Below are positions 3,001-58,714 of a DNA stretch of 64,000 bases, in pieces. How positions within the stretch are numbered: position 1 is the stretch's first letter; every line of letters begins with the position of its first letter. Origin of the DNA: Diplonema papillatum. Its lineage: Eukaryota > Euglenozoa > Diplonemea > Diplonemida > Diplonemidae. The DNA lies in the NCBI GenBank assembly GCA_030068145.1, contig JAPJBO010000124.1, positions 1 to 64,000 on the forward strand, written 5' to 3'. A model generated the notes under the pieces. The model worked only from the letters and a program-made list of their open reading frames with translations, made no database searches and was not told the origin of the DNA. The position numbers were made by a program, and so were the translations under genes.

Positions 3001-6000
3001 CCCTCTTCCGGAGAAGCCACATGGGCAGCCTCTGGGAAGGGCGCACGGCCCTCTTCCGGAGGAGTCACGGAGACAGCCTCTGGGAAGGGCGCACGGCCCT
3101 CTTCCGGAGAAGCCACATGGACAGTCTCTGGGACAGGGCGCACGGCCCTCTTCCGGAGGAGTCACGGAGACAGCCTCTGGGAAGGGCGCAAGGCCCTCTT
3201 CCGGAGAAGCCACATGGACAGTCTCTGGGAAGGGCGCACGGCCCTCTTCCGGAGGAGTCACGGAGACAACCTCTGGGAAGGGCGCAAGGCCCTCTTCCGG
3301 AGAAGCCACATGGACAGTCTCTGGGAAGGGCGCACGGCCCTCTTCCGGAGGAGTCACGGAGACAACCTCTGGGAAGGGCGCAAGGCCCTCTTCCGGAGAA
3401 GCCACATGGACAGTCTCTGGGAAGGGCGCACGGCCCTCTTCCGGAGGAGTCACGGAGACAGTCTCTGGGAAGGGCGCAAGGCCCTCTTCCGGAGAAGCCA
3501 CATGGACAGTCTCTGGGAAGGGCGCACGGCCCTCTTCCGGAGAAGCCACGGGACAGTCTCTGGGAAGGGCGCACGGCCCTCTTCCGGAGAAGCCACATGG
3601 ACAGTCTCTGGGAAGGGCGCACGGCCCTCTTCCGGAGGAGTCACGGAGACAGCCTCTGGGAAGGGCGCACGGCCCTCTTCCGGAGAAGCCACATGGACAG
3701 TCTCTGGGACAGGGCGCACGGCCCTCTTCCGGAGGAGTCACGGAGACAGCCTCTGGGAAGGGCGCAAGGCCCTCTTCCGGAGAAGCCACATGGACAGTCT
3801 CTGGGAAGGGCGCACGGCCCTCTTCCGGAGGAGTCACGGAGACAGCCTCTGGGAAGGGCGCAAGGCCCTCTTCCGGAGAAGCCACATGGACAGTCTCTGG
3901 GAAGGGCGCACGGCCCTCTTCCGGAGAAGCCACATGGGCAGTCTCTGGGACAGGGCGCACGGCCCTCTTCCGGAGGAGTCACGGAGACAACCTCTGGGAA
4001 GGGCGCAAGGCCCTCTTCCGGAGAAGCCACATGGACAGTCTCTGGGAAGGGCGCACGGCCCTCTTCCGGAGGAGTCACGGAGACAGCCTCTGGGAAGGGC
4101 GCAAGGCCCTCTTCCGGAGAAGCCACATGGACAGTCTCTGGGAAGGGCGCACGGCCCTCTTCCGGAGAAGCCACATGGGCAGTCTCTGGGACAGGGCGCA
4201 CGGCCCTCTTCCGGAGGAGTCACGGAGACAGCCTCTGGGAAGGGCGCAAGGCCCTCTTCCGGAGAAGCCACATGGACAGTCTCTGGGAAGGGCGCACGGC
4301 CCTCTTCCGGAGGAGTCACGGAGACAACCTCTGGGAAGGGCGCAAGGCCCTCTTCCGGAGAAGCCACATGGACAGTCTCTGGGACAGGGCGCACGGCCCT
4401 CTTCCGGAGGAGTCACGGAGACAGCCTCTGGGAAGGGCGCAAGGCCCTCTTCCGGAGAAGCCACATGGACAGTCTCTGGGAAGGGCGCACGGCCCTCTTC
4501 CGGAGAAGCCACATGGGCAGTCTCTGGGACAGGGCGCACGGCCCTCTTCCGGAGGAGTCACGGAGACAACCTCTGGGAAGGGCGCAAGGCCCTCTTCCGG
4601 AGAAGCCACATGGACAGTCTCTGGGACAGGGCGCACGGCCCTCTTCCGGAGGAGTCACGGAGACAGCCTCTGGGAAGGGCGCAAGGCCCTCTTCCGGAGA
4701 AGCCACATGGACAGTCTCTGGGAAGGGCGCACGGCCCTCTTCCGGAGGAGTCACGGAGACAACCTCTGGGAAGGGCGCAAGGCCCTCTTCCGGAGAAGCC
4801 ACATGGACAGTCTCTGGGAAGGGCGCACGGCCCTCTTCCGGAGGAGTCACGGAGACAACCTCTGGGAAGGGCGCAAGGCCCTCTTCCGGAGAAGCCACAT
4901 GGACAGTCTCTGGGACAGGGCGCACGGCCCTCTTCCGGAGGAGTCACGGAGACAGCCTCTGGGAAGGGCGCAAGGCCCTCTTCCGGAGAAGCCACATGGA
5001 CAGTCTCTGGGACAGGGCGCACGGCCCTCTTCCGGAGGAGTCACGGAGACAACCTCTGGGAAGGGCGCAAGGCCCTCTTCCGGAGAAGCCACATGGACAG
5101 TCTCTGGGACAGGGCGCACGGCCCTCTTCCGGAGGAGTCACGGAGACAGCCTCTGGGAAGGGCGCAAGGCCCTCTTCCGGAGAAGCCACATGGACAGTCT
5201 CTGGGAAGGGCGCACGGCCCTCTTCCGGAGGAGTCACGGAGACAGCCTCTGGGAAGGGCGCAAGGCCCTCTTCCGGAGAAGCCACATGGACAGTCTCTGG
5301 GAAGGGCGCACGGCCCTCTTCCGGAGAAGCCACATGGAGACAGTCTCTGGGAAGGGCGCACGGCCCTCTTCCGGAGGAGTCACGGAGACAGCCTCTGGGA
5401 AGGGCGCAAGGCCCTCTTCCGGAGAAGCCACATGGACAGTCTCTGGGAAGGGCGCACGGCCCTCTTCCGGAGGAGTCACGGAGACAGCCTCTGGGAAGGG
5501 CGCAAGGCCCTCTTCCGGAGAAGCCACATGGACAGTCTCTGGGAAGGGCGCACGGCCCTCTTCCGGAGAAGCCACATGGGCAGTCTCTGGGACAGGGCGC
5601 ACGGCCCTCTTCCGGAGGAGTCACGGAGACAGCCTCTGGGAAGGGCGCAAGGCCCTCTTCCGGAGAAGCCACATGGACAGTCTCTGGGAAGGGCGCACGG
5701 CCCTCTTCCGGAGGAGTCACGGAGACAACCTCTGGGAAGGGCGCAAGGCCCTCTTCCGGAGAAGCCACATGGACAGTCTCTGGGAAGGGCGCACGGCCCT
5801 CTTCCGGAGGAGTCACGGAGACAACCTCTGGGAAGGGCGCAAGGCCCTCTTCCGGAGAAGCCACATGGACAGTCTCTGGGAAGGGCGCACGGCCCTCTTC
5901 CGGAGAAGCCACATGGGCAGTCTCTGGGACAGGGCGCACGGCCCTCTTCCGGAGGAGTCACGGAGACAGCCTCTGGGAAGGGCGCAAGGCCCTCTTCCGG

Positions 6001-9000
6001 AGAAGCCACATGGACAGTCTCTGGGAAGGGCGCACGGCCCTCTTCCGGAGGAGTCACGGAGACAGCCTCTGGGAAGGGCGCAAGGCCCTCTTCCGGAGAA
6101 GCCACATGGACAGTCTCTGGGAAGGGCGCACGGCCCTCTTCCGGAGAAGCCACATGGGCAGTCTCTGGGACAGGGCGCACGGCCCTCTTCCGGAGGAGTC
6201 ACGGAGACAGCCTCTGGGAAGGGCGCAAGGCCCTCTTCCGGAGAAGCCACATGGACAGTCTCTGGGAAGGGCGCACGGCCCTCTTCCGGAGGAGTCACGG
6301 AGACAACCTCTGGGAAGGGCGCAAGGCCCTCTTCCGGAGAAGCCACATGGACAGTCTCTGGGAAGGGCGCACGGCCCTCTTCCGGAGGAGTCACGGAGAC
6401 AACCTCTGGGAAGGGCGCAAGGCCCTCTTCCGGAGAAGCCACATGGACAGTCTCTGGGAAGGGCGCACGGCCCTCTTCCGGAGGAGTCACGGAGACAACC
6501 TCTGGGAAGGGCGCAAGGCCCTCTTCCGGAGAAGCCACATGGACAGTCTCTGGGAAGGGCGCACGGCCCTCTTCCGGAGAAGCCACATGGGCAGTCTCTG
6601 GGACAGGGCGCACGGCCCTCTTCCGGAGGAGTCACGGAGACAGCCTCTGGGAAGGGCGCAAGGCCCTCTTCCGGAGAAGCCACATGGACAGTCTCTGGGA
6701 AGGGCGCACGGCCCTCTTCCGGAGGAGTCACGGAGACAGCCTCTGGGAAGGGCGCAAGGCCCTCTTCCGGAGAAGCCACATGGACAGTCTCTGGGAAGGG
6801 CGCACGGCCCTCTTCCGGAGGAGTCACGGAGACAGCCTCTGGGAAGGGCGCAAGGCCCTCTTCCGGAGAAGCCACATGGACAGTCTCTGGGAAGGGCGCA
6901 CGGCCCTCTTCCGGAGAAGCCACATGGGACAGTCTCTGGGAAGGGCGCACGGCCCTCTTCCGGAGGAGTCACGGAGACAGCCTCTGGGAAGGGCGCAAGG
7001 CCCTCTTCCGGAGAAGCCACATGGACAGTCTCTGGGAAGGGCGCACGGCCCTCTTCCGGAGGAGTCACGGAGACAGCCTCTGGGAAGGGCGCAAGGCCCT
7101 CTTCCGGAGAAGCCACATGGACAGTCTCTGGGAAGGGCGCACGGCCCTCTTCCGGAGGAGTCACGGAGACAGCCTCTGGGAAGGGCGCACGGCCCTCTTC
7201 CGGAGAAGCCACATGGACAGTCTCTGGGAAGGGCGCACGGCCCTCTTCCGGAGAAGCCACATGGACAGTCTCTGGGAAGGGCGCACGGCCCTCTTCCGGA
7301 GGAGTCACGGAGACAGCCTCTGGGAAGGGCGCAAGGCCCTCTTCCGGAGAAGCCACATGGACAGTCTCTGGGAAGGGCGCACGGCCCTCTTCCGGAGAAG
7401 CCACATGGGCAGTCTCTGGGACAGGGCGCACGGCCCTCTTCCGGAGGAGTCACGGAGACAGCCTCTGGGAAGGGCGCAAGGCCCTCTTCCGGAGAAGCCA
7501 CATGGACAGTCTCTGGGAAGGGCGCACGGCCCTCTTCCGGAGGAGTCACGGAGACAGCCTCTGGGAAGGGCGCAAGGCCCTCTTCCGGAGAAGCCACATG
7601 GACAGTCTCTGGGAAGGGCGCACGGCCCTCTTCCGGAGAAGTCACGGAGCAGTCTCTGGGAAGGGCGCACGGCCCTCTTCCGGAGGAGCCACGGAGACAG
7701 TCTCTGGGAAGGGCGCACGGCCCTCTTCCGGAGAAGCCACATGGACAGTCTCTGGGAAGGGCGCACGGCCCTCTTCCGGAGGAGTCACGGAGACAGTCTC
7801 TGGGAAGGGCGCAAGGCCCTCTTCCGGAGAAGCCACATGGACAGTCTCTGGGAAGGGCGCACGGCCCTCTTCCGGAGAAGCCACATGGGCAGTCTCTGGG
7901 ACAGGGCGCACGGCCCTCTTCCGGAGGAGTCACGGAGACAGCCTCTGGGAAGGGCGCAAGGCCCTCTTCCGGAGAAGCCACATGGACAGTCTCTGGGAAG
8001 GGCGCACGGCCCTCTTCCGGAGGAGTCACGGAGACAGCCTCTGGGAAGGGCGCAAGGCCCTCTTCCGGAGAAGCCACATGGACAGTCTCTGGGAAGGGCG
8101 CACGGCCCTCTTCCGGAGAAGCCACATGGGCAGTCTCTGGGACAGGGCGCACGGCCCTCTTCCGGAGGAGTCACGGAGACAGCCTCTGGGAAGGGCGCAA
8201 GGCCCTCTTCCGGAGAAGCCACATGGACAGTCTCTGGGAAGGGCGCACGGCCCTCTTCCGGAGGAGTCACGGAGACAACCTCTGGGAAGGGCGCAAGGCC
8301 CTCTTCCGGAGAAGCCACATGGACAGTCTCTGGGAAGGGCGCACGGCCCTCTTCCGGAGGAGTCACGGAGACAGCCTCTGGGAAGGGCGCAAGGCCCTCT
8401 TCCGGAGAAGCCACATGGACAGTCTCTGGGAAGGGCGCACGGCCCTCTTCCGGAGAAGCCACATGGCAGTCTCTGGGACAGGGCGCACGGCCCTCTTCCG
8501 GAGGAGTCACGGAGACAGCCTCTGGGAAGGGCGCAAGGCCCTCTTCCGGAGAAGCCACATGGACAGTCTCTGGGAAGGGCGCACGGCCCTCTTCCGGAGG
8601 AGTCACGGAGACAGCCTCTGGGAAGGGCGCAAGGCCCTCTTCCGGAGAAGCCACATGGACAGTCTCTGGGAAGGGCGCACGGCCCTCTTCCGGAGAAGCC
8701 ACATGGGCAGTCTCTGGGACAGGGCGCACGGCCCTCTTCCGGAGGAGTCACGGAGACAGCCTCTGGGAAGGGCGCAAGGCCCTCTTCCGGAGAAGCCACA
8801 TGGACAGTCTCTGGGAAGGGCGCACGGCCCTCTTCCGGAGGAGTCACATAGACAACCTCTGGGAAGGGCGCAAGGCCCTCTTCCGGAGAAGCCACATGGA
8901 CAGTCTCTGGGAAGGGCGCACGGCCCTCTTCCGGAGGAGTCACGGAGACAGCCTCTGGGAAGGGCGCAAGGCCCTCTTCCGGAGAAGCCACATGGACAGT

Positions 9001-11630
9001 CTCTGGGAAGGGCGCACGGCCCTCTTCCGGAGGAGTCACGGAGACAGCCTCTGGGAAGGGCGCAAGGCCCTCTTCCGGAGAAGCCACATGGACAGTCTCT
9101 GGGAAGGGCGCACGGCCCTCTTCCGGAGAAGCCACATGGGCAGTCCTGGGACAGGGCGCACGGCCCTCTTCGGAGGAGTCACGGAGACAGCCTCTGGGAA
9201 GGGCGCAAGGCCCTCTTCCGGAGAAGCCACATGGACAGTCTCTGGGAAGGGCGCACGGCCCTCTTCCGGAGGAGTCACGGAGACAGCCTCTGGGAAGGGC
9301 GCACGCCCTCTTCCGGAGAAGCCACATGGGCAGTCTCTGGACAGGGCGCACGGCCCTCTTCCGGAGGAGTCACGGAGACAACCTCTGGGAAGGGCGCAAG
9401 GCCCTCTTCCGGAGAAGCCACATGGACAGTCTCTGGGACAGGGCGCACGGCCCTCTTCCGGAGAAGCCACATGGGCAGTCTCTGGGACAGGGCGCACGGC
9501 CCTCTTCCGGAGGAGTCACGGAGACAGCCTCTGGGAAGGGCGCAAGGCCCTCTTCCGGAGAAGCCACATGGACAGTCTCTGGGAAGGGCGCACGGCCCTC
9601 TTCCGGAGGAGTCACGGAGACAACCTCTGGGAAGGGCGCAAGGCCCTCTTCCGGAGAAGCCACATGGACAGTCTCTGGGAAGGGCGCACGGCCCTCTTCC
9701 GGAGGAGTCACGGAGACAGCCTCTGGGAAGGGCGCAAGGCCCTCTTCCGGAGAAGCCACGTGGACAGTCTCTGGGACAGGGCGCACGGCCCTCTTCCGGA
9801 GGAGTCACGGAGACAGCCTCTGGGAAGGGCGCAAGGCCCTCTTCCGGAGAAGCCACATGGACAGTCTCTGGGAAGGGCGCACGGCCCTCTTCCGGAGGAG
9901 TCACGGAGACAGCCTCTGGGAAGGGCGCAAGGCCCTCTTCCGGAGAAGCCACATGGACAGTCTCTGGGACAGGGCGCACGGCCCTCTTCCGGAGGAGTCA
10001 CGGAGACAGCCTCTGGGAAGGGCGCAAGGCCCTCTTCCGGAGAAGCCACATGGACAGTCTCTGGGAAGGGCGCACGGCCCTCTTCCGGAGGAGTCACGGA
10101 GACAGCCTCTGGGAAGGGCGCAAGGCCCTCTTCCGGAGAAGCCACATGGACAGTCTCTGGGAAGGGCGCACGGCCCTCTTCCGGAGAAGCCACATGGGCA
10201 GTCTCTGGGACAGGGCGCACGGCCCTCTTCCGGAGGAGTCACGGAGACAACCTCTGGGAAGGGCGCAAGGCCCTCTTCCGGAGAAGCCACATGGACAGTC
10301 TCTGGGAAGGGCGCACGGCCCTCTTCCGGAGGAGTCACATAGACAACCTCTGGGAAGGGCGCAAGGCCCTCTTCCGGAGAAGCCACATGGACAGTCTCTG
10401 GGAAGGGCGCACGGCCCTCTTCCGGAGAAGCCACATGGGCAGTCTCTGGGACAGGGCGCACGGCCCTCTTCCGGAGGAGTCACGGAGACAGCCTCTGGGA
10501 AGGGCGCAAGGCCCTCTTCCGGAGAAGCCACATGGACAGTCTCTGGGAAGGGCGCACGGCCCTCTTCCGGAGGAGTCACGGAGACAGCCTCTGGGAAGGG
10601 CGCAAGGCCCTCTTCCGGAGAAGCCACATGGACAGTCTCTGGGAAGGGCGCACGGCCCTCTTCCGGAGAAGCCACATGGGCAGTCTCTGGGACAGGGCGC
10701 ACGGCCCTCTTCCGGAGGAGTCACGGAGACAGCCTCTGGGAAGGGCGCAAGGCCCTCTTCCGGAGAAGCCACATGGACAGTCTCTGGGAAGGGCGCACGG
10801 CCCTCTTCCGGAGGAGTCACATAGACAACCTCTGGGAAGGGCGCAAGGCCCTCTTCCGGAGAAGCCACATGGACAGTCTCTGGGAAGGGCGCACGGCCCT
10901 CTTCCGGAGGAGTCACGGAGACAGCCTCTGGGAAGGGCGCAAGGCCCTCTTCCGGAGAAGCCACATGGACAGTCTCTGGGACAGGGCGCACGGCCCTCTT
11001 CCGGAGGAGTCACGGAGACAGCCTCTGGGAAGGGCGCAAGGCCCTCTTCCGGAGAAGCCACATGGACAGTCTCTGGGAAGGGCGCACGGCCCTCTTCCGG
11101 AGAAGCCACATGGGCAGTCTCTGGGACAGGGCGCACGGCCCTCTTCCGGAGGAGTCACGGAGACAGCCTCTGGGAAGGGCGCAAGGCCCTCTTCCGGAGA
11201 AGCCACATGGACAGTCTCTGGGAAGGGCGCACGGCCCTCTTCCGGAGGAGTCACGGAGACAGCCTCTGGGAAGGGCGCAAGGCCCTCTTCCGGAGAATCC
11301 ACGTGGACAGTCTCTGGGAAGGGCGCACGGCCCTCTTCCGGAGGAGTCACGGAGACAGCCTCTGGGAAGGGCGCAAGGCCCTCTTCCGGAGAAGCCACAT
11401 GGACAGTCTCTGGGAAGGGCGCACGGCCCTCTTCCGGAGGAGTCACGGAGACAGCCTCTGGGAAGGGCGCAAGGCCCTCTTCCGGAGAATCCACGTGGAC
11501 AGTCTCTGGGACAGGGCGCACGGCCCTCTTCCGGAGGAGTCACGGAGACAGCCTCTGGGAAGGGCGCAAGGCCCTCTTCCGGAGAAGCCACATGGACAGT
11601 CTCTGGGACAGGGCGCACGGCCCTCTCACT
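1..11630. repeat. 48/49-bp minisatellite array
   Basis: Uninterrupted tandem array, about 240 units judged from length and period. A unit starts CAGTCTCTGGGAAGGGCGCA. Two subtypes alternate, one ending GGAGGAGTCACGGAGA and one ending GGAGAAGCCACATGGA, giving a 96-bp dimer. A 49-bp variant (GACAGGGCGC instead of GAAGGGCGC) recurs at intervals of 145, 193, 241 or 337 bp, so there is higher-order structure. The plus strand of the unit has no stop triplet in any frame, so all three forward frames stay open for more than 8.5 kb. The only stops come from rare CACATAGAC variants near 8845, 10335 and 10820. Local deletions occur near 1471, 2808, 9143, 9170 and 9303. The array runs off the left edge of the window. 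Confidence 0.97.
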
Positions 11631-20250: not shown

Positions 20251-21464
20251 CGAGTCCGAGGAGCGGTTGCCCACCTCAGCAGCAGTCGCGGGATCCCTTC
20301 CGTTGGTGCACTTGGCATCACGGGGTAGTTGGCAGCGCAGTGAGGTTCTCGTTTGTTAAAAGGGTCTTCGAGAGGCCCCCAAGGGAGGTGGAAGGCGAGG
20401 CTGCATCGCTGCACCGCACGTGACTGGGAGAAGACAGGAAAAGCGCGAGCGTTGGCAGAGAATGAAGTTGCTCTTCGAATGAAAGTTCGCTTGAAACTCC
20501 GGGGTTTCAGAGTATCCGCATGACTTCTAGAACGCTGCGTACCCAGGATATTTTTAAAGGTGGTGGTTACACGGGAAGAGTACCTTTGTGGACCTTTTGC
20601 CATTGATCGATTGTTGGCTGGCGTTGGTGGTTGTGCCCACCTGCCAGCAGTTCGTGATACACGAGTTTCTTGTTCTGCGACGGAATCTCATCTCGTTTGT
20701 TGGAGAGAAGTACGGGTCGTAGAGGAGTCTAGTTCACGCATTTACTGGAAAGGGATTTGAGGTCAAGTACATTTGCTGGGACCCGAAAGGTAGTGAACTA
20801 TGCCTGAATAGGACAAAGCCGGGAGAATCCCTTGAGTCCGTTGCGGTGTTGACGTGCACTCGCTCGTCAAAGCTGGGTAGATAGCTGGCTGGTTCACTCC
20901 GAAGTTTCTCACGGAATAGCTAGTGAAACCGGAGATGATTGGAACTGTGAAACAGCGGCGTTTTCAAATACTTCACAGATCCGTGGATTCGGCAAATGGC
21001 CTTCGAACAAAATCACTAAACAACAGCTGCGCCCAGTTGACGTGTTGCCTCCGCTTTACTCAAAAGGCGCCCATGGTCTTTGCGCTTCTCCTCTTGTCAT
21101 TTGATTGCGACGGGACGATCGTCAAAGTGTGACCGGCCGCGAAGTACTATTGGTTGCTTTGCTTTTGCTGCTGCGAAGAAGGGGTTGTTTTCTTCTCTTT
21201 TTTCTCCTTCTTCTCCTGCTCTCCTCTTCTTGCTTTTTTCACGCTTTCTTGGCGCTTGTCAAGTTTTCTCTTTTAGTTCGAGTTTTAAGGATCCGTGGTT
21301 GTATGTCTCCAGTAGTGACGGCGGGTTTTGGGGGTTCGTTCATGTGCCTTGTTCCTTTTCTTTTTCTGCAGGGCCCGGGGTTCGCCACCTCTCGTACCTT
21401 CGCGCGAAGTATCGTCATTGAATTCTGCTTGGGCGGAGCCATCAAAGCGCGCAGCGTGGTACAT
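20251..21464. other. No gene identified
   Basis: No convincing coding sequence. A stretch at about 20470-20525 (AAAGTTCGCTTGAAACTCCG) recurs at about 56570-56610. T/C-rich tract at about 21180-21250. Confidence 0.35.
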
Positions 21465-21612
21465 TCTACGGAAGGGATCGTTCGCGATTCAAGAAGAGGG
21501 ATGCCGATTAGAATGAGTATGAATGGCATACCACATGCTCGAAAGACATGGAGGGAAACAAACAAATGAATCGGTCATGTGCCAATGAAAATGCAAAAGT
21601 CAAGACCGTCAT
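21465..21612 (+). repeat. rDNA 5' spacer (ETS) fragment
   Basis: Matches, in reverse complement, the sequence just upstream of the 18S 5' end at about 46035-46170. Shared words include GATGCCGATTAGAATGAGTA, CTCGAAAGACATGGAGGGAA and AATGAATCGGTCATGTGCCA. It is a displaced piece of ribosomal spacer, not an rRNA gene. Confidence 0.8.
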
Positions 21613-30092: not shown

Positions 30093-30255
30093 GTGCCGAT
30101 CTCGTTCGCTAGCGGAATCAACCTAACAAATCACCCCACCAACCAGGGGCGGCCGTGCACCACCGCACAATTCATCGAGAAAGAGCTCGCAATCTGTCAA
30201 CCCTTGAGATCGTCCTGATCTAGTAAATTTCCCCGTGTTGTGTCAAATTCGCATC
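30093..30255 (-). rRNA. 18S rRNA fragment (relic)
   Basis: Matches the antisense of 18S around the universally conserved GTTAACGAACG and AATTTGACTCAACACGG segments. It parallels 42098-42245 in this window with scattered substitutions (for example GTTCGCTAGCGGAATCAACC against GTTCGTTAACGGAATCAACC). About 160 nt only, therefore non-functional. Confidence 0.85.
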
Positions 30256-35750: not shown

Positions 35751-37493
35751 TTACTGAACCTTTTTGCTCAGTCTCACGCGGTCGATGTTCTTGGCATACT
35801 CAGACGGGGAGTGGTCGTAGATGAAGGAAGGCGTGACCAACGTGGTGAGGAGGGTGAGAAGGGCGCTGCGCAGCTCGCTGTCCTCGCCGCCGAACAGTTC
35901 TTCCGCCGGCGCCTTCAGGCGCTGCTTGGCCAGGTTGACCGCGGCGTTCGGCAGCAGCCACCAAACGGTCGCGGCGCAGTTCTTCGCCGAGACCACGACG
36001 TCCTCAACAAGCTTCTGCGCCCTCCAATACAGGATGTTGTGCAACAGCGTCCGCACCGCGTTGTTGACCGTCGCCTTCTCCCGAAACCGCTCATACGGCG
36101 TTCGGTCCGGGTAGGCGGCCGTCTGAGTGGGAGCGGCGCCGAAGTACCCAAGCCGGTACTCCCGACCCACTTCACCCCAGTTGGTGAGGCTGCAGAAGTC
36201 GATCTGAGGGAGGACGTCCGACCGGGATATGACCAGGGTCCACACCTGCCAGAGCTCAGCGAGCAGCCCTGTGCCCGCTGGCACGATGCCGACGATGTCG
36301 TTTCCGTTGCGGAAGCGCCGGAACGGGACGCCCAGCCGGTCCAACGCGGCGTTCACTTTTTCGGCGAACACGCGGTCCCCGACGCGCGGGTTGCCAAAGG
36401 TGTACACCCCCGTCAGCGCCGAGCAGAGCGCTTCGAGGCCCGTCGGCTCGCCGGCCACCGGCCGCCGGCCGCCCTGCGCGGCGTGCATCTCCGGCGCGGC
36501 GACGATCGCCGTGAACATCGTCGCCAGCGCTGCACCTAGCGAGTGCCCCGTGACCCACAGCTTCACCTTCGTCTGCCCAGTCGCCTTGCCCGCCTGGACC
36601 ACCCCCGCGACGGCGGCGAGGATCTTCGCGAGCGGCGGTTCGTCGTCCCGGCGCGACGCCTTCTTCACGAACGCATTGTAAAACCCTTCGTGGACCCTCC
36701 CGTGCGGTGTGAGCCCGCTGACCCCGAAGCCGTACTCGGCGAGCAGGGTGTAGTCGACGACTTTTTTGATCCTCGCGTCGGACATCCACTCGTTCAAATC
36801 GAACGGCGACGTCCCCTTGAACACGACGACGACGACCTGGTAGTCCAGCACCGCCTTGTGCAGCACCGTGCAGCTGCAGCTGTTCTCGCTGATGATCCTC
36901 CTTCTCTGCTTCCTCCCGAACCCCCACTTGTCCAGCAGCTCGTTGTGGACGGCGTTGCCCTCGTAAACGGCGCAGGTGAGCATCGAAAAAAACTTCGCCA
37001 GGTCAAGATCGAACACTTGGTCCACAGGACCCGGATTCTCCGTGAGCATCCGGTCGAGCTTGTCCTGAGACCCCGAGGGGTCGTAACCCATGATGTACGG
37101 TATCCCGGCCAGGTTGACCGCGGAGTGCCGGCTGCCCAGGGCGCGGGCTCGCCAGAACAAGGGGGGGGCGTTCTCCTTCCGGTCTTCGCTGGGCGGGATG
37201 ATCGTCCGGACCGACGTGCGCCAGAGGCTTTCGAGGAAGTCGAAGGCTGCGGAGAGCACTTTGCGGACGAAGACTTCAGTGATGAGGATCACGACGCCGA
37301 GCAGGCGGAGCACAACGAAGACGAGGAGCGCGATGAAAGCGGACACGAGGTCTTCCAGCGACACGATCAGCCACACGGCGGAATTCTTCGCGAAGTCGCC
37401 GTATGACGTCCAGTCGTCGAGATCCACTTCGTCGTCTCCGTCGGGGTCAACTCTTCTCACCGCACTCAGCGGCTGTATCGCTTGGGGTACCAT
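35751..37493 (-). CDS. Class-3 lipase-like protein C, catalytic His not seen
   Basis: Uninterrupted 580-aa frame, TAA stop, closest to lipase A (LDDWTSYG.F near the N-terminus, VFKGTSPFDLNEWMSD, RVHEGFYNAFVKK). The Ser elbow GHSLGAALA (Ser318) and acid NGNDIVGIVP (Asp399) are present. At the position where A and B have His (PPHQCVGYP, FPHRSVEYP), C has APTQTAAYP with Thr456. Unless another His substitutes, C may be inactive or altered. Hydrophobic segment at about 38-80. The start at 37493 gives MVPQAIQPL, similar in position to MVQQVTP inside lipase A. It is followed downstream by four broken copies of its own last exon-like segment. Confidence 0.87.
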   Translation of the reverse strand: MVPQAIQPLSAVRRVDPDGDDEVDLDDWTSYGDFAKNSAVWLIVSLEDLVSAFIALLVFVVLRLLGVVILITEVFVRKVLSAAFDFLESLWRTSVRTIIPPSEDRKENAPPLFWRARALGSRHSAVNLAGIPYIMGYDPSGSQDKLDRMLTENPGPVDQVFDLDLAKFFSMLTCAVYEGNAVHNELLDKWGFGRKQRRRIISENSCSCTVLHKAVLDYQVVVVVFKGTSPFDLNEWMSDARIKKVVDYTLLAEYGFGVSGLTPHGRVHEGFYNAFVKKASRRDDEPPLAKILAAVAGVVQAGKATGQTKVKLWVTGHSLGAALATMFTAIVAAPEMHAAQGGRRPVAGEPTGLEALCSALTGVYTFGNPRVGDRVFAEKVNAALDRLGVPFRRFRNGNDIVGIVPAGTGLLAELWQVWTLVISRSDVLPQIDFCSLTNWGEVGREYRLGYFGAAPTQTAAYPDRTPYERFREKATVNNAVRTLLHNILYWRAQKLVEDVVVSAKNCAATVWWLLPNAAVNLAKQRLKAPAEELFGGEDSELRSALLTLLTTLVTPSFIYDHSPSEYAKNIDRVRLSKKVQ

Positions 37494-38631
37494 TTTTCCT
37501 GTTATAAACTCGCTCGCTTCAACAAGCCGGTGTCTTTCTTTGTTATTCTGGAGAGAAAGTTCGGTTTTGAACCCCTACTGGACTGCTTGGGCACGCGCCC
37601 AGCGTATTCCGCTGTGGTGAGCTGCACACAGGACAAGGAAGAGCTCCCCAGCGAGTATCTGGTCCTACCGGTACTACTTTGGCGGGTGTAACTCCTGCAG
37701 CTTGGCAAACACTGTCACTAACGCCCATCGATCGATGCAGAATCTTGCACGAAAACCAAGCCTAGCCATCACAGGCGTCAGGTAGGCGGTCTCGGAGTGC
37801 TTTTGTTTGTTGTCTTCGGCTGCATCATCTCTTCCATCCAGTCTGCCTGGAGAACACTGTTTTTGCCCATGCTCCTGGCAAGGCAGCTGCTCAACACTGG
37901 ACACAGGAAAGTGACACCAATGGGTGGTGGTATTTTAGTTCATGGCCTTCCAACACCAGACAAACCCGGTTGGCGGTTACGAAAGACCGTTGCTGCTTTC
38001 GCCAGAGGGTATATGGCCATCTCCTCAAGTATTTCCTACGAATCAGGTGCGTTTACAAAAGAAAAACGCTGAGACGAACGGCGGTGCTGAAGCAGTTGTG
38101 GCCGGGTCGCAAGGAGCATCGTGCAAAAACATTTTGCGAGTCATCAGCAGCAAGGGTCCCGCTATTTTGTAACTAACAGATGCCGGCTCACAAAACGCCA
38201 GCGCTGCACACGGAAAGGCGGAGCGTTGCGGTCGTTTTCTTGGGGAGGGCTTCTTTTTTTTTTTTTTCGTAGAGGAACAATCTGCAATCAGATGAATCTA
38301 ACCTTTTTTTTGGTTGTAGGACTTTGCACAAATACCCGCCCGAACTCGGGCGATGTCTGCAGGGGGCGCAAAAAAGGGTGCTTAGTTCGCAGAAGATTGT
38401 TGCGGCGGTTTGCGCGTCGAGAGTAACGATATGCCCGATGCGTGGGTAGTCATTGAGAGATACTGTGAAGTGATGCTCCACGCCTCACCTTTTATGCACG
38501 GCGTGCGCCGCCGATTCGTTGATGCGGATGGAATTGCTTGCTGCGAGATGGAGCCATGGCTCTCATTTCGAACATGATGCCCAAGAGTGGCGTGATTGAC
38601 GATGCCTCTTCTTACTTTTTACCTAGACTGG
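37494..38631. other. Spacer with dispersed repeats
   Basis: Contains repeat R4 at about 37732-37838 (CAGAATCTTGCACGAAAACC, AAGCCTAGCCATCACAGG, TCAGGTAGGCGGTCTCGGAG), which recurs at 40522-40620. An R1 fragment lies at about 38015-38065 (CTCCTCAAGTATTTCCTACG, A-rich end). No gene seen. Confidence 0.55.
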
Positions 38632-38816
38632 GTTCTGGCTTAGAGGCGTTCAGCCATAATCCATCCAGTGGTAGCATCACTGTCCGATCGAACAACCGTA
38701 GATACCAGGGACTAGAAACGGGAGTTCCTCTCGTACTACCCCGTATTGCTGTCGGAATGCGCTGGCCCGATGGGCTCTCTCTCCATCAGTAGGGTAAAAC
38801 CAACCTTTCTCACGAC
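38632..38816 (-). rRNA. 28S rRNA fragment (relic)
   Basis: Antisense of a strongly conserved region near the 28S 3' end: TTCTGGCTTAGAGGCGTTCA, GCCATAATCC, GTTCCTCTCGTACTA and CATCAGTAGGGTAAAACCAA then CCT.TCTCACGACG. About 185 nt, diverged between the conserved blocks, so a displaced pseudogene. Confidence 0.85.
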
Positions 38817-39367
38817 GTGCACACCGGTACCAGACACCGGCACCCTAACGTGGTGTCTCTGGAGATGCCGACGTGGGTTTAGACACTCTCAAATCTGATG
38901 CCTGTGAAGTGACTGCACGCAAACCGCAAACGAACGCCACGCCAACAATGTATCCAACGTAAAGCCAAGCGCTGCGCAGGGAACTGGATGGGGGGGGGGG
39001 GGAAGTATCTAGGCGTACACACGAAATATTAAACAAGAAGGAAACAGAAAACGAAAGTAACTGAAACGCAAGGGAGCGCCTGCGTGATCGTGAGTAAAAA
39101 AAAAAAAGGAACATCGACAGATATTGTGGTTGGTACTCACAACCTTGTGTGGCTGCCGTACAAAGCACGTGTTCGAGGAGCTAGCGCGGCTCACCTGGTC
39201 GTCCGCATTTCCTCCAGCACTGCCCCACTGTGCTAACGCAGAGCGCGCGGACGATTTGCACTGGAGCCGCAAACTCTTAGTGGGTTGCCACAGCGATTTT
39301 TTCGGGTGCGTCATACGAAGGCTCGAGAATAGAGAATGGAAGGCTCCCACAACCCGCCGCGGTGGGG
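38817..39367. other. No gene identified
   Basis: G tract at about 38992-39002, A tract at about 39096-39107. No convincing gene. Confidence 0.35.
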
Positions 39368-39652
39368 GACGAGAGGTGAAATGAGATCGTAGGACGAACT
39401 TCCGCGGGCATTCACTCAGCGAATGTCTTCTCATCAAGAACACAAGAGCGTGGGATCCGAGATGGTCTGATACCGTCGTAGTCCACGGCTGTAAGTGATG
39501 TCGTCTCAGGATCGAGGGAAGACGAGCTTCTGCTAAAGCATTCGACAAGAATGTTTCTGGATCAAGAACGAGAGCGTGGGGATCCAAGATAATCAGAAAC
39601 CGTCGTGGTCGACTGTCGCAAACCAAAGCCGTCTCAGGATCGAGGAAAGTCC
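39368..39652 (+). rRNA. Two decayed tandem copies of an 18S segment
   Basis: Two consecutive degenerate copies (about 39368-39520 and 39521-39652) of the 18S region found antisense at 42380-42545. Shared words are GATCGTAGGA.GACGAACTTC, GCATTCGACAAGAATGT, AAGAACGAGAGCGTGGG, ATACCGTCGTAGTCCAC and CGTCTCAGGATCGAGG. They are in opposite orientation to the main 18S gene. Non-functional. Confidence 0.85.
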
Positions 39653-39877
39653 TCGAACAAGAATAATTCTTTCTTTCTTTTGTTACGGTCGCCAAGTAAA
39701 ACGCAAGGGTTTTCGGCGCAAGCAGCTCGAAACAGCCGCCATCGGCGGGCAACGTTCTGATCGCAAAGCGAAGAACCCGCGGCAGCCCGCACCACGGATC
39801 GCAGGTGCCCCCGCTCCTTCGCCTGCCCGATCAGCACCGTCGGATAGCGTGAGAACGGGGTCAAGGAACGATGCATT

Positions 39878-40046
39878 GTGCATTCCCTCCGTGTCTTTCG
39901 AGCACGTTGTATGCCATTCATACTCATTCTAATCGGCATCTCTCTCCTTGAACCGCGAACGATTCTTTCCGTGGAATGTGAACACCGCCATTTGAGTATC
40001 GAGGCGAGGTCATGCCAGGTTACTTAGCCATGTCTCAAGAGCGGAG
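39878..40046 (-). repeat. rDNA 5' spacer (ETS) fragment
   Basis: Close copy of 46076-46250 upstream of 18S (ATTCATACTCATTCTAATCG, GCGAACGATTCTTTCCGTGG, GAGGCGAGGTCATGCCAG, AGAGCGGAGT). Its edge coincides with the stop codon of the coiled-coil exon at 40047, so it would form that gene's 3' UTR. Confidence 0.85.
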
Positions 40047-40468
40047 TCACCCTGCGGTCGTCTGCTCGGCCGTGAGGCGCTGACGCATCTGCTCCTTGAG
40101 CTGCTGCAGGCGCTTGATTTCGTCGAGGCGCGACACGGACGGAGACGCCGACCGGTGGTAGGGCGAAGGAGACGCGCTGTAGGCAGCCGGCGACGGCGAC
40201 GCGCGCGCGAGGCCGGCCCCCGCGCCGCTGGTGGAGTGCTGCCTTTGGTACGTGGGCAGCCCCTGCGAAGCCGCGGACGGCACGTACTGCGGCACCTCCG
40301 CCGACACACTGCGGTGCCCCGAGCTCCTGTCCCGGAACCGCTTCAGCCGCGTGTGCGTGGTCAGCCCCGGCCCGGGCACGTCGCTTTCTTGCAGCTTCTT
40401 CAGCTCGTCGTTGAGGATGACGTTGAGTTGCTGCGAGCTGCTCCGGCTTCGCGTCGCCGCTTGCGCCG
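40047..40468 (-). CDS. Probable last exon of the WW/coiled-coil gene
   Basis: Acceptor CCCCCCACAG at 40469-40478, then a frame starting in phase 1 and ending in TGA at 40047 (140 codons including the stop). It encodes a Ser/Thr/Arg-rich linker (RSRSSSQQLNVILNDELKKL ... SPSPYHRSASPS) and a short terminal coiled coil (RLDEIKRLQQLKEQMRQRLT). The phase matches the donor at 48379 of the gene to its right, which gives a 1223-residue product divisible by three overall. The 7.9-kb distance, filled with rDNA, leaves open that this exon belongs to another transcript. An upstream Met in frame (40523) would require ignoring the acceptor. Confidence 0.6.
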
Positions 40469-42097: not shown

Positions 42098-42274
42098 CGT
42101 TCGTTAACGGAATCAACCTGACAAATCACTCCACCAACCAGGAGCGGCCATGCACCACCACACAATTCATCGAGAAAGAGCTCTCAATCTGTCAATCCTT
42201 GAGATCGTCCTGACCTAGTAAAATTCCCCGTGTTGAGTCAAATTAAGCCGCATACTCCACGCCTGGTGGTGTCA

Positions 42275-42307
<33 letters not shown>

Positions 42308-43597
42308 ATGTACTCCCCCCTGAACCCATAATCTTTGATTTCTCGTTCGGGGAGTGCCGTGGGAGCCAAAATGACTTCCCTCGATCCTGAGACGGCATCG
42401 TTTACAGCAGTGGACTACGACGGTATCTGATCATCTTGGATCCCCACGCTCTCGTTCTTGATTAATGAAGACATTCTTGTCGAATGCTTTCGCAGAAGTT
42501 CGTCTTCCTACGATCTAAGAATTTCACCTCTGACGTAGGAGTACGTACGACCCCGGCAGTCCCTATTGATCCCGCGCAACGAGGCCTTAGACGAAACTCA
42601 AAAGAGAACCGCTAAGAACTTCGTTTTGATTATTCCTTCTCGGGTTAAGAGACCAACAAAAAGAGTCGAGAGAATCGATCCCTTGTTATTCCATGCTTTA
42701 TCATTCACGGCGAACGCCTGCTTTGGGCACGCTGGTTTGTTCACAGTAACATCGGTGGTCGACCCGTATGCGTATGGTGTACGCGTAAGCGCTTTCATCC
42801 CGATGAAGAGATTACTTGCAAGGCACCATTACCACCGTTCATAGAGCACAGGTCTTGATGCGAGGGGTTGATCCCAGCCTTCTGAATACCAGCAGTACGC
42901 TGATGCCCAGCAAACTGGGCCACCTTGCAACCTGAGCTCTGGATCCAACTACGAGCTTTTTAACAGCAGCAGCATTAATATACGCTATTGGTGCTGGAAT
43001 TACCGCGGGTGCTGGCACCAGACTTGTCCACCAATTGTGTTCATTGACAGGTTTAGATATCATCCATTGCTTCTAACGTACTAAGTACGTGTCGAGGCTA
43101 TTTCTCTTCGCTGCCTCAGCAGTGTTGCTATTGGGCAATTTGCGTACCTGCTGCCATCCTTAGATGTGGTAGCCGTTTCTCAGGCTCCCTCTCCGGAATC
43201 GAACCCTAATTCCCCGTTACCCGTTACAGCCACGGTAGTCCACTACACTACCGTCAAAAGCTGATAGGGCAGAAGCTCTTGCGGGCTTGCACCGACTTGA
43301 AGTCGTGTGCTATCACTCGATTGACCTGTTTCATCCACACACCGCTGCTATTGCTAGCGTTGGTTCTTATCTCGGTCAATTGTATCCACCTCGACCCCGC
43401 GGTTTTAAGGCCACGGGGTTGAATCGAGTTGGATTCTTCGGACATGTATTAGCAATGGAGTTACCATTGGTATCCAACTGGGCCCAAAAGGCACCTTCCC
43501 CGCGTAGATTGCCACCGATTTAATGAGCCGTCTGCAGACCCACTGTTAATCCATTTACTCTGAGACTTGCATGGCTTAATCCTTGAAACAAGCATAT

Positions 43598-45725
43598 CAT
43601 AGATGGCCGGTTGATAACGTTATATAACGTTATATAACGTTATAACGGTGATAACGTTATATAACGTTATATAACGTTATATAACGGTCGAAAACGCAAA
43701 ATAACGGAAAAAATAACGCAAATAACGGTTTTTAGAATTTTTCCGATTTTGGCCATGTTTCCAGATTTTTGTCATTTTTTCCTCATTTTGGTCCATTTCG
43801 GCCATTTTTTCCGATTTTGGCCATTTTTGCCAGATTTTGGTCAATCTTAGCCAATTTTTCCAGACTTTTGCCGATTTTTTCAGGTTTTGGCCATTTTGCC
43901 GATTTTTTCCAGATTTCGGCAATCTTTGCCGATTTTTCCAGATTTCGGCCATTTTTGCCGATTTTTCAAGATTTTGGACAATTTTGAGATTTTGGCCACT
44001 CTGGCCGATTTATCCAGATCAGTCAATTTCGGCCATTTTTTCCGATTTTTCCAGATTTCCCGATTTTCCAGATTTTGGTCAATTTCGGCCATTTTTGCCA
44101 ATTTTTCCAGACTTTTGCCGATTTTTGGATCCCGGTCACAAAAACTGTTCGGAAACAAACCCTGGTCCGAAAAGAATTCGTAGTAACCGGTCCTCAGGGG
44201 TCCGTATAGCCCCTCCCCAGAGCTTTTTCTCTTTTACTTATTTTCTTGCGGACTTCCACCCAAGCGCGACAAACGCGATCCTTCCGGATTCACATGACTC
44301 TTTCACTGTGCGATGTTGTTCTTGGGATGTGGATGTCTGCAGTTTTGGGTTTCCGGCGCGTGTCCCTCAGTCGGTGGCCCGTAACGGTCGTTTGCAGTGT
44401 CCTTCGTGAGGCAGCAGATGTCACCAGCATGATCCGGCCACTGGAGTCCAACTTGTCCAAGCTTGTCCACTCGGCAGACCGTTGCGTACTATGCCAGTCA
44501 GACAAGGTCCCAGTACCAAATATGGGTGCATGATGAGCACGAGACATGCAAAGTCGAGCAGTCACAGCTGGCGCTTCCCGTAGAACCCAGCCAGCCCGGG
44601 GTCGGTTTTCTTGATCCGGTCGATGAATCGTTGTTCCGGGCTCTTACTTGGTGGTTTCGTGACAGGGAGAACGCTGGGGCCAGTCAATGCCAGGTCGCGG
44701 GACAAGGCCTCGACGCGCAGCGTTTCCGCCACCTTCTTCCTTCCGCGTCGCGCCTTTGCAACCGAGGCGCTGCTGCTGCTGCTGTTGCTATCCGTACTTT
44801 CGGCGCGAGGCCGTTTGCGCTGTGTACCTGGGGTCTTCGGCTGAGCTTTCGGCTGAGCTTTAGGTTGAACCTTCGGCTTCGGCTGGACCTTCGGGGAGCT
44901 TTTCGCAGGCATAGTCGATATTCCCTTTGGAAAGACTAGTGTGGCTGAAATCGAAGCGGGTGGGGCGGTACACGTGTTTTTGTGTTTCCGACGATCCCGA
45001 ATGGGTGTACAGATTGGTGTCTTTCGACCTTTTTTTTTTTCCGCGCACGGACTGCCTGTTCGAGCTTGTGCGGGTTTAAGAAACTCAGACAAGAATAGCT
45101 CTGGTGAGGGGCAGGGCATAAATGACCAAAACCCTGGAAAAATCGGCAAAAACGGCCAAAATGGGCAAAGTCTGGAAAACATGGCAAAACTGGCCAAAAA
45201 TGACCAAAACCTGGAAAAATCGGCAAAAATAGCCAAATTTTTGAAAAACATGGCAAAAATGGCCAATCCTGGCCAAATCGGTAAAAACGGCCAAAATGGG
45301 CCAAAATCTGGAAAACACGGCAAAACTGGTCAACATTGACCAAAATCTGGAAAAATTGGCAAAAATAACCAAAATTGGCCAAAATCTGGAAAATGTGGCA
45401 AAAATGGCCAAAAATGACCAAAATCTGGAGGACAGTGTGACCTCCCATGGACTGGTAAAAAACCGTTATATAACGTTATATAACGTTATATAACGTTATT
45501 ATACCGTTATTATAACGTTATATAACGTTATATAACGTTATATAACGTTATATAACGTTATATAACGTTATAACGGTCAAATAACGTTATGTTTCGACCA
45601 AAAATGGCAAATAACGGTTTTATAACGGTCAATAACGGGTTTTCTGGATTTAGGGGGGGGGTAACAAATAACTCCGGGAATAACGTTATATAACGTTATA
45701 TAACGTTATATAACGGCCATCTATG
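43598..45725. mobile_element. Foldback element 5 inserted in 18S rDNA
   Basis: 2128 bp between a perfect 6-bp target duplication GCATAT (43592-43597, 45726-45731). Terminal inverted repeat CATAGATGGCCG, followed inwards on both sides by palindromic tandem repeats of TAACGTTATA (about 43615-43685 and 45465-45715). Next come complementary arms of a degenerate ~20-30-bp satellite, TTTTGGCCATTTTTGCC on the left (43740-44130) and GGCAAAAATGGCCAAAA on the right (45115-45430). The ends can therefore fold into a stem of several hundred bp. The middle (44150-45100) is unique and encodes one small protein. No transposase. Confidence 0.9.
44562..44912 (-). CDS. Small basic protein carried by the 18S element
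   Basis: 116-aa frame in the unique centre of foldback element 5. The N-terminal third is a Lys/Pro/Gln tract with repeats of KVQPK and KAQPK. Then come QRKRPRAEST, a serine run, a second basic cluster (KARRGRKKV) and a more ordered C-terminus (PEQRFIDRIKKTDPGLAG). The two basic clusters look like nuclear-localisation or DNA-binding tails, resembling linker-histone or nucleolar proteins in composition only. The frame is also open upstream to 45323, but that part reads the satellite arm and is not credible. Role unknown; element-encoded DNA-binding protein is an inference. Confidence 0.5.
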   Translation of the reverse strand: MPAKSSPKVQPKPKVQPKAQPKAQPKTPGTQRKRPRAESTDSNSSSSSASVAKARRGRKKVAETLRVEALSRDLALTGPSVLPVTKPPSKSPEQRFIDRIKKTDPGLAGFYGKRQL

Positions 45726-45756
45726 GCATATGACTACTGGCAGGATCAACCAGGTT

Positions 45757-46400
45757 TCTTGTCACTCAAACCAGGCTGGACCGAGGAAAATCTGACGAAT
45801 CAAAGATTCCCCGATACCAGAGATTGTATCGTGTCAAGCCTAGATTGATGCATGATCATTCTATTCATTCTTCAGCTTTCAAAAGGGGCAGTCCTCGATC
45901 GTATCTCTACGACCGATAGCTTTCCTCGATTGCCTTTTTTGTATTTCACCATCGTGTCTTCCCGATTACCTTGACCATTTGATCGAGCGCATACGAGTAT
46001 GCTAACTCGGATCTGGAACGAGTCCACGGGAGAGGAACGGTCTTGACTTTTGCATTTTCATTGGCACATGACCGATTCATTTTGCATTCCCTCCATGTCT
46101 TTCGAGCACGTGGTATGTCATTCATACTCATTCTAATCGGCATCCCTCTTCTTGAATCGCGAACGATTCTTTCCGTGGAATGTTAACACCGCCATTTGAG
46201 ATTATCGAGGCGAGGTCATGCCAGATTAGTTAGCTATGTCACTAGAGCGGAGTGCTGCTCCGATTCAGAATGTGATTGACTCACTCTAGTGATTAGCGTT
46301 CTTGCCTTATGAATACCAGTCTCTTTCATCTGCCAGTCTTTGATTTTCATTTCATGCGTGGTTGACCATCATATTACCAACAGGAGAGGTAGTGATCCTT
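45757..46400 (-). other. rDNA 5' external spacer
   Basis: Directly upstream of the 18S 5' end. Parts of it (about 46010-46250) are found again at 21465-21612 and 39878-40046. No coding content. Confidence 0.7.
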
Positions 46401-46497
46401 CCGTCCTCCTGGAGCTCTAGAGCTTCCAGGAGGGGAGGACCCCCTTTCCTATATTGGGCATGACCCCTTTTCGCGAACTGGGGGGGTCGGCGACGCG

Positions 46498-56258: not shown

Positions 56259-57190
56259 GCCAGCGCTGCCTCAGCTGTCAGACACGCACTCCGCGCCGCT
56301 TCCTACCGCGCGCGGCCGCCTGGTGAAGCGGACGGGATGGATACGCCCTACTCGGTTTCCCCTCTGAAGGGTTGGGTGGGGGTGGTGTTTTTCTTGTGGG
56401 GGGTCCTGTTGTTCGGTGCAGTGCATCACGTCCTGTTTAGCGCGTGGGTCGTCGCATACTGCCTTCTTACAGTTTTGTAGCACAGAATGTGGCTGGACCG
56501 GAAGAAATGCGTAGAGTTTTGGTTTATTCTCTCCAACTCCCCCTTGCGAGTTTGACTAGTCATTTTCAGAGTTAAAGTTCGCTTGAAATTCCGGGGTTTT
56601 AGGGTCTGTGTGACCGTTGTTAAATTTTTGTGACTCTCTGAACGGGTATTTTTCATCTTGCTCCGTGCGCAAGATGAGTGCGCCGGCTCCCTCCATTTCT
56701 CCCTGCTGTGGTCGGCCTGAACCCGCTAGCAGCTGTCGGTGTCAGCTACAGTCTTGCCCTGCAACGCCCATTGCTTGCTGTCTTCGATGGAACACCTGCT
56801 GTAGCCACCCCGCCATTTTTTACCGATGATGTGAGATTGATGTAGCATCATCTTGCTCGTACGCTACGTACTCACGCACGCCAGGCATTGTGATACCAGT
56901 ACGGGTGCAGCAAGTGAGTTGCAACATACTCATCACTGGATGCAGACTTCCACGGCCACCGTATATTCGAGACAAGGTGAAAATAGTTGGGGGCTATTTT
57001 TCCCCGTCGGTGTTTTTTTTCTTCTGTCTTAATAATATTTCCTGTTTTTTAAAGGTTCCCCCCCTCATGGGAGGACGCGAAGCTAGCGAGACTGGCGAAA
57101 TACAAGCATTAAGTCGGATTTTGTGTTTCCCTCGGCTTCTTTCGTTCTTTCCTTTTTTTGATACAAACTTGCTTTAGGTGGCCGCCAGGT
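56259..57190. other. 5' flank of the WW/coiled-coil gene
   Basis: No further exon recognised. AAAGTTCGCTTGAAATTCCG at about 56573 recurs from 20480. A phrase at about 56725-56785 (GCTGTCGGTGTCAGCTACAG, CTTGCCCTGCAACGCCCA) resembles exon 1 around 56165-56205, suggesting a small decayed duplication of it. Confidence 0.4.
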
Positions 57191-57370
57191 GCGAATTACA
57201 AAATCATCAGTGGAGGATTCATCAGCATGCCGATGACACCACTGACGCAACAGGAGCCCTGAGTGTCCGCGAAGCCCTTCGTCAATATCACCCAACGGCT
57301 GCGACAGGCATTGCGCAATGCTGCGCGCTAGCGTGCAAAAAAAGCATGCCGCAACCGTAACTGAAGACTG
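57191..57370. mobile_element. Relic of palindrome-end element
   Basis: CATCAGCATGCCGATG (57220-57235, one mismatch from perfect palindrome) followed by CCACTGACGCAACAG, as at the right end of 32301-33597. It is followed by GAGTGTCCGCGAAGCCCTTC, ATATCACCCAACGGCTGCGA and GCGCTAGCGTG, a diverged version of 34200-34285 and 52135-52215. Confidence 0.65.
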
Positions 57371-58714
57371 GTGAGACGAGGTGAGGAACACTGATATACA
57401 AGGAAGCAATTTGCTGTAACCCCCCACGAAAGAGAACACAGAGAACCTTGGGTTCCAGGAAAAAAAAAGGCCTATTTTGTAGTTGTGTTGTCTTTTCAGG
57501 TCCTCACTCGAGATAAGGCGGAGCCTCTCCGAGAGTATTGTTGTTGTTGCTCGCTCCGTGTCAGATTGAGCTGCTCTCTAGTCAGTCGGTAAAGTGATGG
57601 ATGGCAGTGTGGTGGCAGCATGGACAAGTGGTGGCTATTGAAGTGGAAGTGCGGCGGAAGGCATGAATTTGTGAAGGTCGTGAGGTCCTGCTCTGTGAGA
57701 ATTCCACGATCACACGAGAGGTGGTTCCGGCCAGTAACCCTCCGAATTCCCACACAGTGTTTACATTCCATTGCCACACGAAAACTGTCAGTCGACACAA
57801 GCAGAACATAAAACTGGCGGCGGCATCTGGTCACGCGCACAGATCTTCAGTTCGTTGTGGCAATATTTCGGTGTTGAGACCTGAACCCTTTTGATGTCAG
57901 CTCTGGTGGAATCGTACTCAACAAACCCTACAATTTGGTACAGCGCGGAGTGCGCTCACTTGATTGAAATTGCGAATCCACTGAGCATTGATCTACCGCT
58001 TGGTAGATGTGCAATAATTCTGACTACACAGAACCTTGAAGGCGGTGAACGGAAGAGACCCCCGGTTCCTGCAAGTCAGATGATGTACCGCTCGGCGTCG
58101 GTGGTTCTACACCTTTTCGGAGACAGGAGTCGGTTGCCCTTTTGCCTGCCGTGGTGCCCTTTCGGTTCTCCTCTTTGCATTGGTTGGGTCGGATCACGTG
58201 TCCGCAGCATCGCCGCCACAACGGACGCGTGATCCGAACTACTCGTGCATCTAATGAACTTTACAGAGTGAAGAAAGAAGGGGGAAGGGGAGATGGGAGA
58301 GGTCCCTGTTGGCAGGCTCGAACGCGCCCACGCCTCCGGAGGGACAGGCAGCAAAAGGGGTCCTCGTACTCCCCAGGGATGTTCGTCGACGTCGAAGCTT
58401 TTTCCCCGGGTCTTTTTGGTTCTAGCGGTCCTGAGGGAAACTTTGAAGTGGACCAGCTACCGCCAGAAAAGCAGGGCTTCGGTTTGGACGCAAGAACACG
58501 AACAGGGGTTCCTATGGAGTTGAGAGGGAAAAAGACTTTCGTGCGTTCGCCCCGAAGGATGATCATGTGTCACAAACTGCTTCAAGTCGCAAGGGGTCCA
58601 TCGCACAGTCGTAAATTTGTTGCATTAGTGTGATTGTCAGGCCGACTACCCTGAGCAACGCACTGCCAACAGTCGATGTAGCCAGATCACAGCGACGAGT
58701 CAAACGCCTAGTCT
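57371..58714. other. No gene identified
   Basis: An open plus-strand frame at 58142-58633 has mixed composition with no recognisable domain or splice context; I do not call it. Otherwise nothing. Confidence 0.3.

Follow-up and report, generated by a model that had tools for sequence, protein, structure and literature searches.

The 2,128-bp insert in the 18S rRNA sequence of the analyzed stretch (64,000 nucleotides of Diplonema papillatum contig JAPJBO010000124.1, hereafter the window) is, with high confidence, a Ds-like non-autonomous derivative of a D. papillatum cut-and-paste transposon of the hAT superfamily; this confidence extends to the mechanism proposed below. Ends in common with a transposase-bearing parent element, 6-bp target-site duplications, the parent gene itself, an internal deletion and amplification of the deleted form were all observed.

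The features of the insert and its surroundings are listed in Table 1. The GCATAT duplication and the inverted ends described in the initial annotation were both exact, and at up to one mismatch CATAGATGGCCG matched the window only at the two element ends (0.20 matches expected; two or more in 2 of 100 shuffles). The self-complementary blocks noted near both ends correspond to 19 copies of AACGTT in the element, against 0.62 expected from base shuffles, 6 of them lying within 83 bp of the left end and 13 within 254 bp of the right end. The satellite arms were also found to be inverted and complementary, for example at 88% over 59 nt and 70% over 131 nt without gaps. The small basic protein placed at the centre exists as an open reading frame, and its nature is that of a transposase start. 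A Pfam scan of three window ORFs found no domain.

Table 1. Coordinates of the insert, its host sequence and the parent transposase (window positions unless a locus is given).
Feature	Position	Strand	Basis or remark
Probable non-autonomous hAT element, 2,128 bp	43598..45725		Two-ended copies with duplications elsewhere; alignment to 5,203-bp parent
Target-site duplication GCATAT, left copy	43592..43597		Equals 6-bp overlap of flanks on intact unit
Target-site duplication GCATAT, right copy	45726..45731		Equals 6-bp overlap of flanks on intact unit
Terminal inverted repeat CATAGATGGCCG, 12 bp, left	43598..43609	+	Zero mismatches to right end
Terminal inverted repeat, right, reverse complement of CATAGATGGCCG	45714..45725	-	Zero mismatches
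Subterminal AACGTTAT array, left, 6 units	43616..43680		Putative transposase binding sites
Subterminal AACGTTAT array, right, 13 units	45472..45709		Putative transposase binding sites
Left degenerate satellite arm	~43737..44127		Also in parent
Right degenerate satellite arm	~45120..45429		Inverted relative to left arm; also in parent
116-aa ORF	44562..44912	-	111 residues of transposase N-terminus, then 5 past deletion
CGTA at deletion junction	44579..44582		3,119 bp of parent absent here
18S fragment (host target), truncated at 42098	42098..43597	-	99.9% to intact unit; unrelated sequence beyond
First ~31 nt of 18S and external transcribed spacer, same fragment	45726..46495	-	Match to intact unit
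793-aa transposase ORF of parent	L074:3530-5908	-	hAT dimerisation domain

A second copy had been called for in the initial annotation, and many were found in a search of the whole genome (271 Mb, 2,910 contigs). The search returned at least 215 matches, with 40 of 1,567 candidates scored, and the 40 best-scoring copies, all near full-length, were read. Both ends were present in 37 of the 40, spaced 2,050-2,250 bp apart. An exact 6-bp duplication flanked 31 of these 37 copies at 29 distinct sites, L009, L021 and L022 having one site in common. When the flanks of different copies were paired as a control, matches were obtained in 5 of 1,332 combinations, some of them due to that common site. 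Among the other six copies, L003 showed an 8-bp duplication, and L002, L008, L010, L013 and L023 showed none that was exact. Target preference was weak: of the 29 sites, 20 had T as the final base of the duplication and 17 had T as its third base. Divergence of the core (element positions 530-1520) among the 37 copies averaged 0.1% with a maximum of 0.2%, values that come from the best-scoring set and thus overstate identity for the family as a whole.

The ends were also examined independently of the core. The CATAGATGGCCG 12-mer occurred exactly 617 times in the genome, compared to 9 times for the reversed pattern, and the first 100 of the 617 places gave 38 facing pairs with lengths of 99-14,633 bp, of which 13 measured 2,081-2,148 bp. 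Among 19 further pairs of other sizes with both flanks read (up to 14.6 kb, including the parent of 5,203 bp and a pair with a spacing of 7,288 bp), 11 had an exact 6-bp duplication and 8 did not, one of the latter (L080) showing 7 bp. One 99-bp pair, L076, was kept out of the counts as a palindrome formed from a single end, its flanks being inverted. The ends and AACGTTAT arrays recurred around a different core in L077-L080 (447-798 bp), indicating that other non-autonomous subfamilies exist. One further copy (L034, contig C250) lies within a AACGTTAT-type array and is apparently nested in another copy.

A probable autonomous partner with the same ends, which the initial annotation had proposed to look for, was reached by way of the 7,288-bp pair (L071). 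Transposase-like frames were present in L071; when the genome was searched for one of these frames, 36 matches were obtained, and four of the places had an open frame of 832 codons. One of the four, L074 (contig C277), measures 5,203 bp and has the same ends, its own exact TCATTT duplication and a 793-aa ORF. The hAT dimerisation domain (PF05699) was detected at residues 690-767 of this ORF with an E-value of 7.1e-10 and a score of 39 bits, the cut-off being 21.4. Because an element with identical ends encodes a hAT transposase, the earlier view of the insert as an undescribed type is not supported; it is a new family within a known superfamily. L071 itself was dropped as the parent: it has the same ends, but its transposase region is rearranged and split over different frames. 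A Mutator-type transposase, suggested by a weak Transposase_mut match in L071 (E 0.11), was dropped as well, since DIPPA_27064 and the full frame show the hAT domain. The ends of other transposase-bearing copies were seen in part: C57 had an exact duplication, ATTTTA, outside its two ends, with both ends (one with a changed base) and flanks alike at 5 of 6 bases on C493, and one end each within the 201-bp pieces read on C203, C2040, C94 and C943.

In the protein searches, DIPPA_27064 of D. papillatum was the only protein to match the transposase piece at an E-value of 0.001 or below, and no relative outside D. papillatum reached this threshold. The best solved relative of the 793-aa protein was Hermes, with an E-value of 0.077 for the single sequence and 4.5e-5 with a profile of the D. 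papillatum relatives. Besides the dimerisation domain, the ORF contains C-x2-C at residues 146-149, H-x3-H at 167-171 and C-x2-H at 367-370. A second hAT-like transposase family was observed at four places (L082-L085), near-identical and with open frames.

The window element was collinear with this parent apart from the internal deletion and retained the ends of the transposase-bearing element. Its first 985 bp correspond to parent positions 1-934 (85% identity) and its last 1,147 bp to positions 4050-5203 (93%), and the CGTA tetranucleotide stands at both edges of the missing 3,119 bp. What remains of the transposase corresponds to parent residues 1-118, and the 116-aa ORF is 85% identical to the transposase N-terminus over 123 aligned positions. 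The exact 24-mer across the deletion junction occurred 149 times in the genome, whereas the matching undeleted 24-mer occurred 15 times, so that a single deletion event most likely founded the subfamily. Together with the ends common to L074 and the CGTA deletion, these counts identify the element as a Ds-like non-autonomous hAT derivative that was recently amplified.

Target duplications of hAT elements are usually 8 bp long; the predominant 6 bp observed here, with 8 bp in one copy of 37, departs from this norm and fits a described group. hAT groups with 5-, 6- and 7-bp duplications have been described (PMC12730594), the group with 6 bp being hAT6 (Kapitonov and Jurka 2007, cited in PMC12730594). 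Like hAT6, the D. papillatum elements combine a hAT dimerisation domain in the parent transposase, short inverted ends and 6-bp duplications; unlike it, the third catalytic acid is apparently D. The terminal inverted repeats of hAT elements are given as 10-25 bp (PMC3942097), and those of the window element and the parent are both perfect over 12 bp.

In the alignment with Hermes, the candidate catalytic residues of the 793-aa protein are D279, D343 and C367xxH370, with D736 at the place of Hermes E572 (counted from the 612-aa Hermes chain). The active site of hAT transposases consists of a catalytic D-D-E with a C/DxxH motif. Around the third acid, L074 reads AADSVFS and L083-L085 read ECDSFFS, against ASERTFS in Hermes, and the two D. 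papillatum families, which are approximately 25% identical, both have D at that place. The alignment comprised the parent and four of six relatives (L083-L086); L082, with frame changes near its end, was excluded, as was the broken close relative L087. L083-L085 hardly differ from one another and form one family, in which the hAT domain falls below the Pfam cut-off (E 0.13-0.14), and L086 is without the third-acid region. Two structure predictions gave mean pLDDT values of 39.4 and 33.8, too low for use. Since L083-L085 count once and lie below the cut-off, L086 does not cover the region and neither structure is usable, a D-D-D active site can only be suggested for the D. papillatum hAT. Steps of transposition are lost in the Hermes mutants E572A and E572C (PMC2533014). 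The elements might represent a private diplonemid hAT lineage with 6-bp duplications and D-D-D instead of D-D-E that is still mobile, a tentative proposal that we consider somewhat doubtful; its last part rests on the deleted copies, which are too alike for an element long dead.

Among the possible mechanisms, cut-and-paste by a hAT transposase acting in trans has the best support. The CGTA-to-CGTA deletion has reduced the transposase gene to its beginning, and intact copies would supply the transposase. We infer that this transposase is active and binds the ends, that is, the 12-bp inverted repeat and the AACGTTAT arrays as binding sites, perhaps via an N-terminal C2H2-type zinc-finger-like motif. 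It would then excise the element and insert it at a target whose two strands are cut with a 6-bp offset, and copy number could grow through repair or replication timing. Several points weigh against this explanation, namely the 6 of 37 and 8 of 19 pairs without an exact 6-bp duplication, the 8 bp usual in hAT and the D in place of the catalytic E; movement is deduced from sequence, and the structure predictions add nothing to it.

The insert had been described as lying in the 18S rRNA gene. With the intact unit L081, which comes from this genome and has its 18S, 5.8S and 28S complete, as the reference, the flanks were 99.9% identical over 1,500 bp and 99.2% identical over 770 bp, and they overlapped each other on the unit by exactly 6 bp. 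The flanking sequence is 18S and rDNA, but the gene copy is truncated and not whole: its match to the intact gene ends after 1,525 of 2,051 nt, and the remainder of the rDNA unit appears in the window only as scattered pieces. These rDNA-derived fragments (30-200 bp, 81-97% identical to L081, both orientations) were observed at 20740-21609, 30098-30249, 38623-40047 and 56874-58460. The genome paper describes many scattered rRNA gene pieces in D. papillatum (PMC10161547). We infer that the window insertion was one transposition event into a dispersed, truncated rDNA fragment.

The initial annotation considered the element possibly rDNA-targeted, which would mean a transposase that selects a fixed 18S site, as in Dada or R1/R2. 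This reading is highly improbable. The window copy does lie within 18S, and rDNA-like sequence adjoins 3 of the 37 two-ended copies (L001, L007 and L028), but these three targets are at different positions of the unit. The proposed count of rDNA units carrying the insert at the same nucleotide was made in the assembly: the junction between element and 18S occurred once, against 146 uninterrupted 18S sites, and the copies read had 29 different targets. A fixed 18S target site is thus refuted for this assembly. The background near such ends is itself rDNA-like at 5.9% of 46,000 bases, or 2.6% (1,139 of 44,000) without the window's own locus; moreover, the window was chosen for its 18S and the remaining targets are diverse. 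There may be a mild general rDNA bias of insertion, although the numbers are small, and it is apparently by chance that the window copy lies in a broken rRNA gene. Dada, described as having no terminal inverted repeats, fixed sites in small RNA genes, 6-7 bp duplications and a D/CxxH-type DDE transposase (PMC3706591), resembles the element in duplication length and, apparently, in transposase type. It was rejected on the perfect 12-bp ends, the 29 different sites and the ratio of 1 to 146 at 18S.

An independent foldback class, in which the satellite arms themselves drive movement, is more improbable still. The arms are inverted and complementary, and Foldback-like elements with long, repeat-rich ends do exist, yet the transposase-bearing parent also has the arms, which, being inherited from it, need no role of their own. 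In addition, L075, an element of 99 bp, has nothing but ends and arrays, although the flanks of this element are alike at 5 of 6 bases and not exact. Galileo has long, repeat-rich inverted ends of this kind, with 7-8 bp duplications, and its P-type transposase assigns it to that superfamily (PMC4168063), so that the foldback form defines no class; the parent here encodes a hAT transposase instead. An assembly join without any real insertion is the least credible reading, for although high-copy repeats and rDNA are error-prone in assemblies, a perfect 6-bp duplication stands directly outside both ends and the flanks are collinear with the intact unit, overlapping by just those 6 bp. A LINE of the R1/R2 type was ruled out with the other readings, as the scanned ORFs of window and parent, like eight ORFs of L071, contained no reverse transcriptase domain. 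The part of the initial annotation that described a non-autonomous DNA element, truly inserted with a target duplication and no LINE, thus stands.

The derived hAT element has a counterpart in Ds of maize, an internal deletion derivative in the same superfamily. MITEs of the BuT2 type are likewise hAT-derived (PMC3942097). As in these systems, the ends are kept, the internal part is deleted, a full transposase is lacking and the derivative outnumbers its parent; in contrast to typical hAT-derived MITEs, the element is long (2.1 kb) and carries satellite arms and a leftover 116-aa ORF.

Diplonemids are abundant marine flagellates. Among the mostly open-access papers listed by our literature search, there was no report of hAT elements from Euglenozoa or diplonemids. 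The DNA transposons named in the D. papillatum genome paper include TATE, MULE and Helitron (PMC10161547), a 2025 paper cites that genome for low transposon diversity (PMC12278014), and Merlin has been reported from kinetoplastids (PMC8101967). The present data document a diplonemid hAT whose transposase frames are open and whose deleted copies multiplied very recently, that is, very recent activity in a lineage thought poor in such elements, and take a supposed rDNA-targeting element out of consideration. For insertional mutagenesis, the family is a candidate native to the species, and the D-D-D site, if real, would provide a test of hAT active-site variability.

Two further features of the window were noted. 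Its first 11.6 kb (1-11626) are occupied by a long 48-bp satellite, which has a higher-order unit of 241 bp, and an open reading on the minus strand at ~36000-37500, with a GHSLG motif recognized by eye, suggests a class-3 lipase-like gene.
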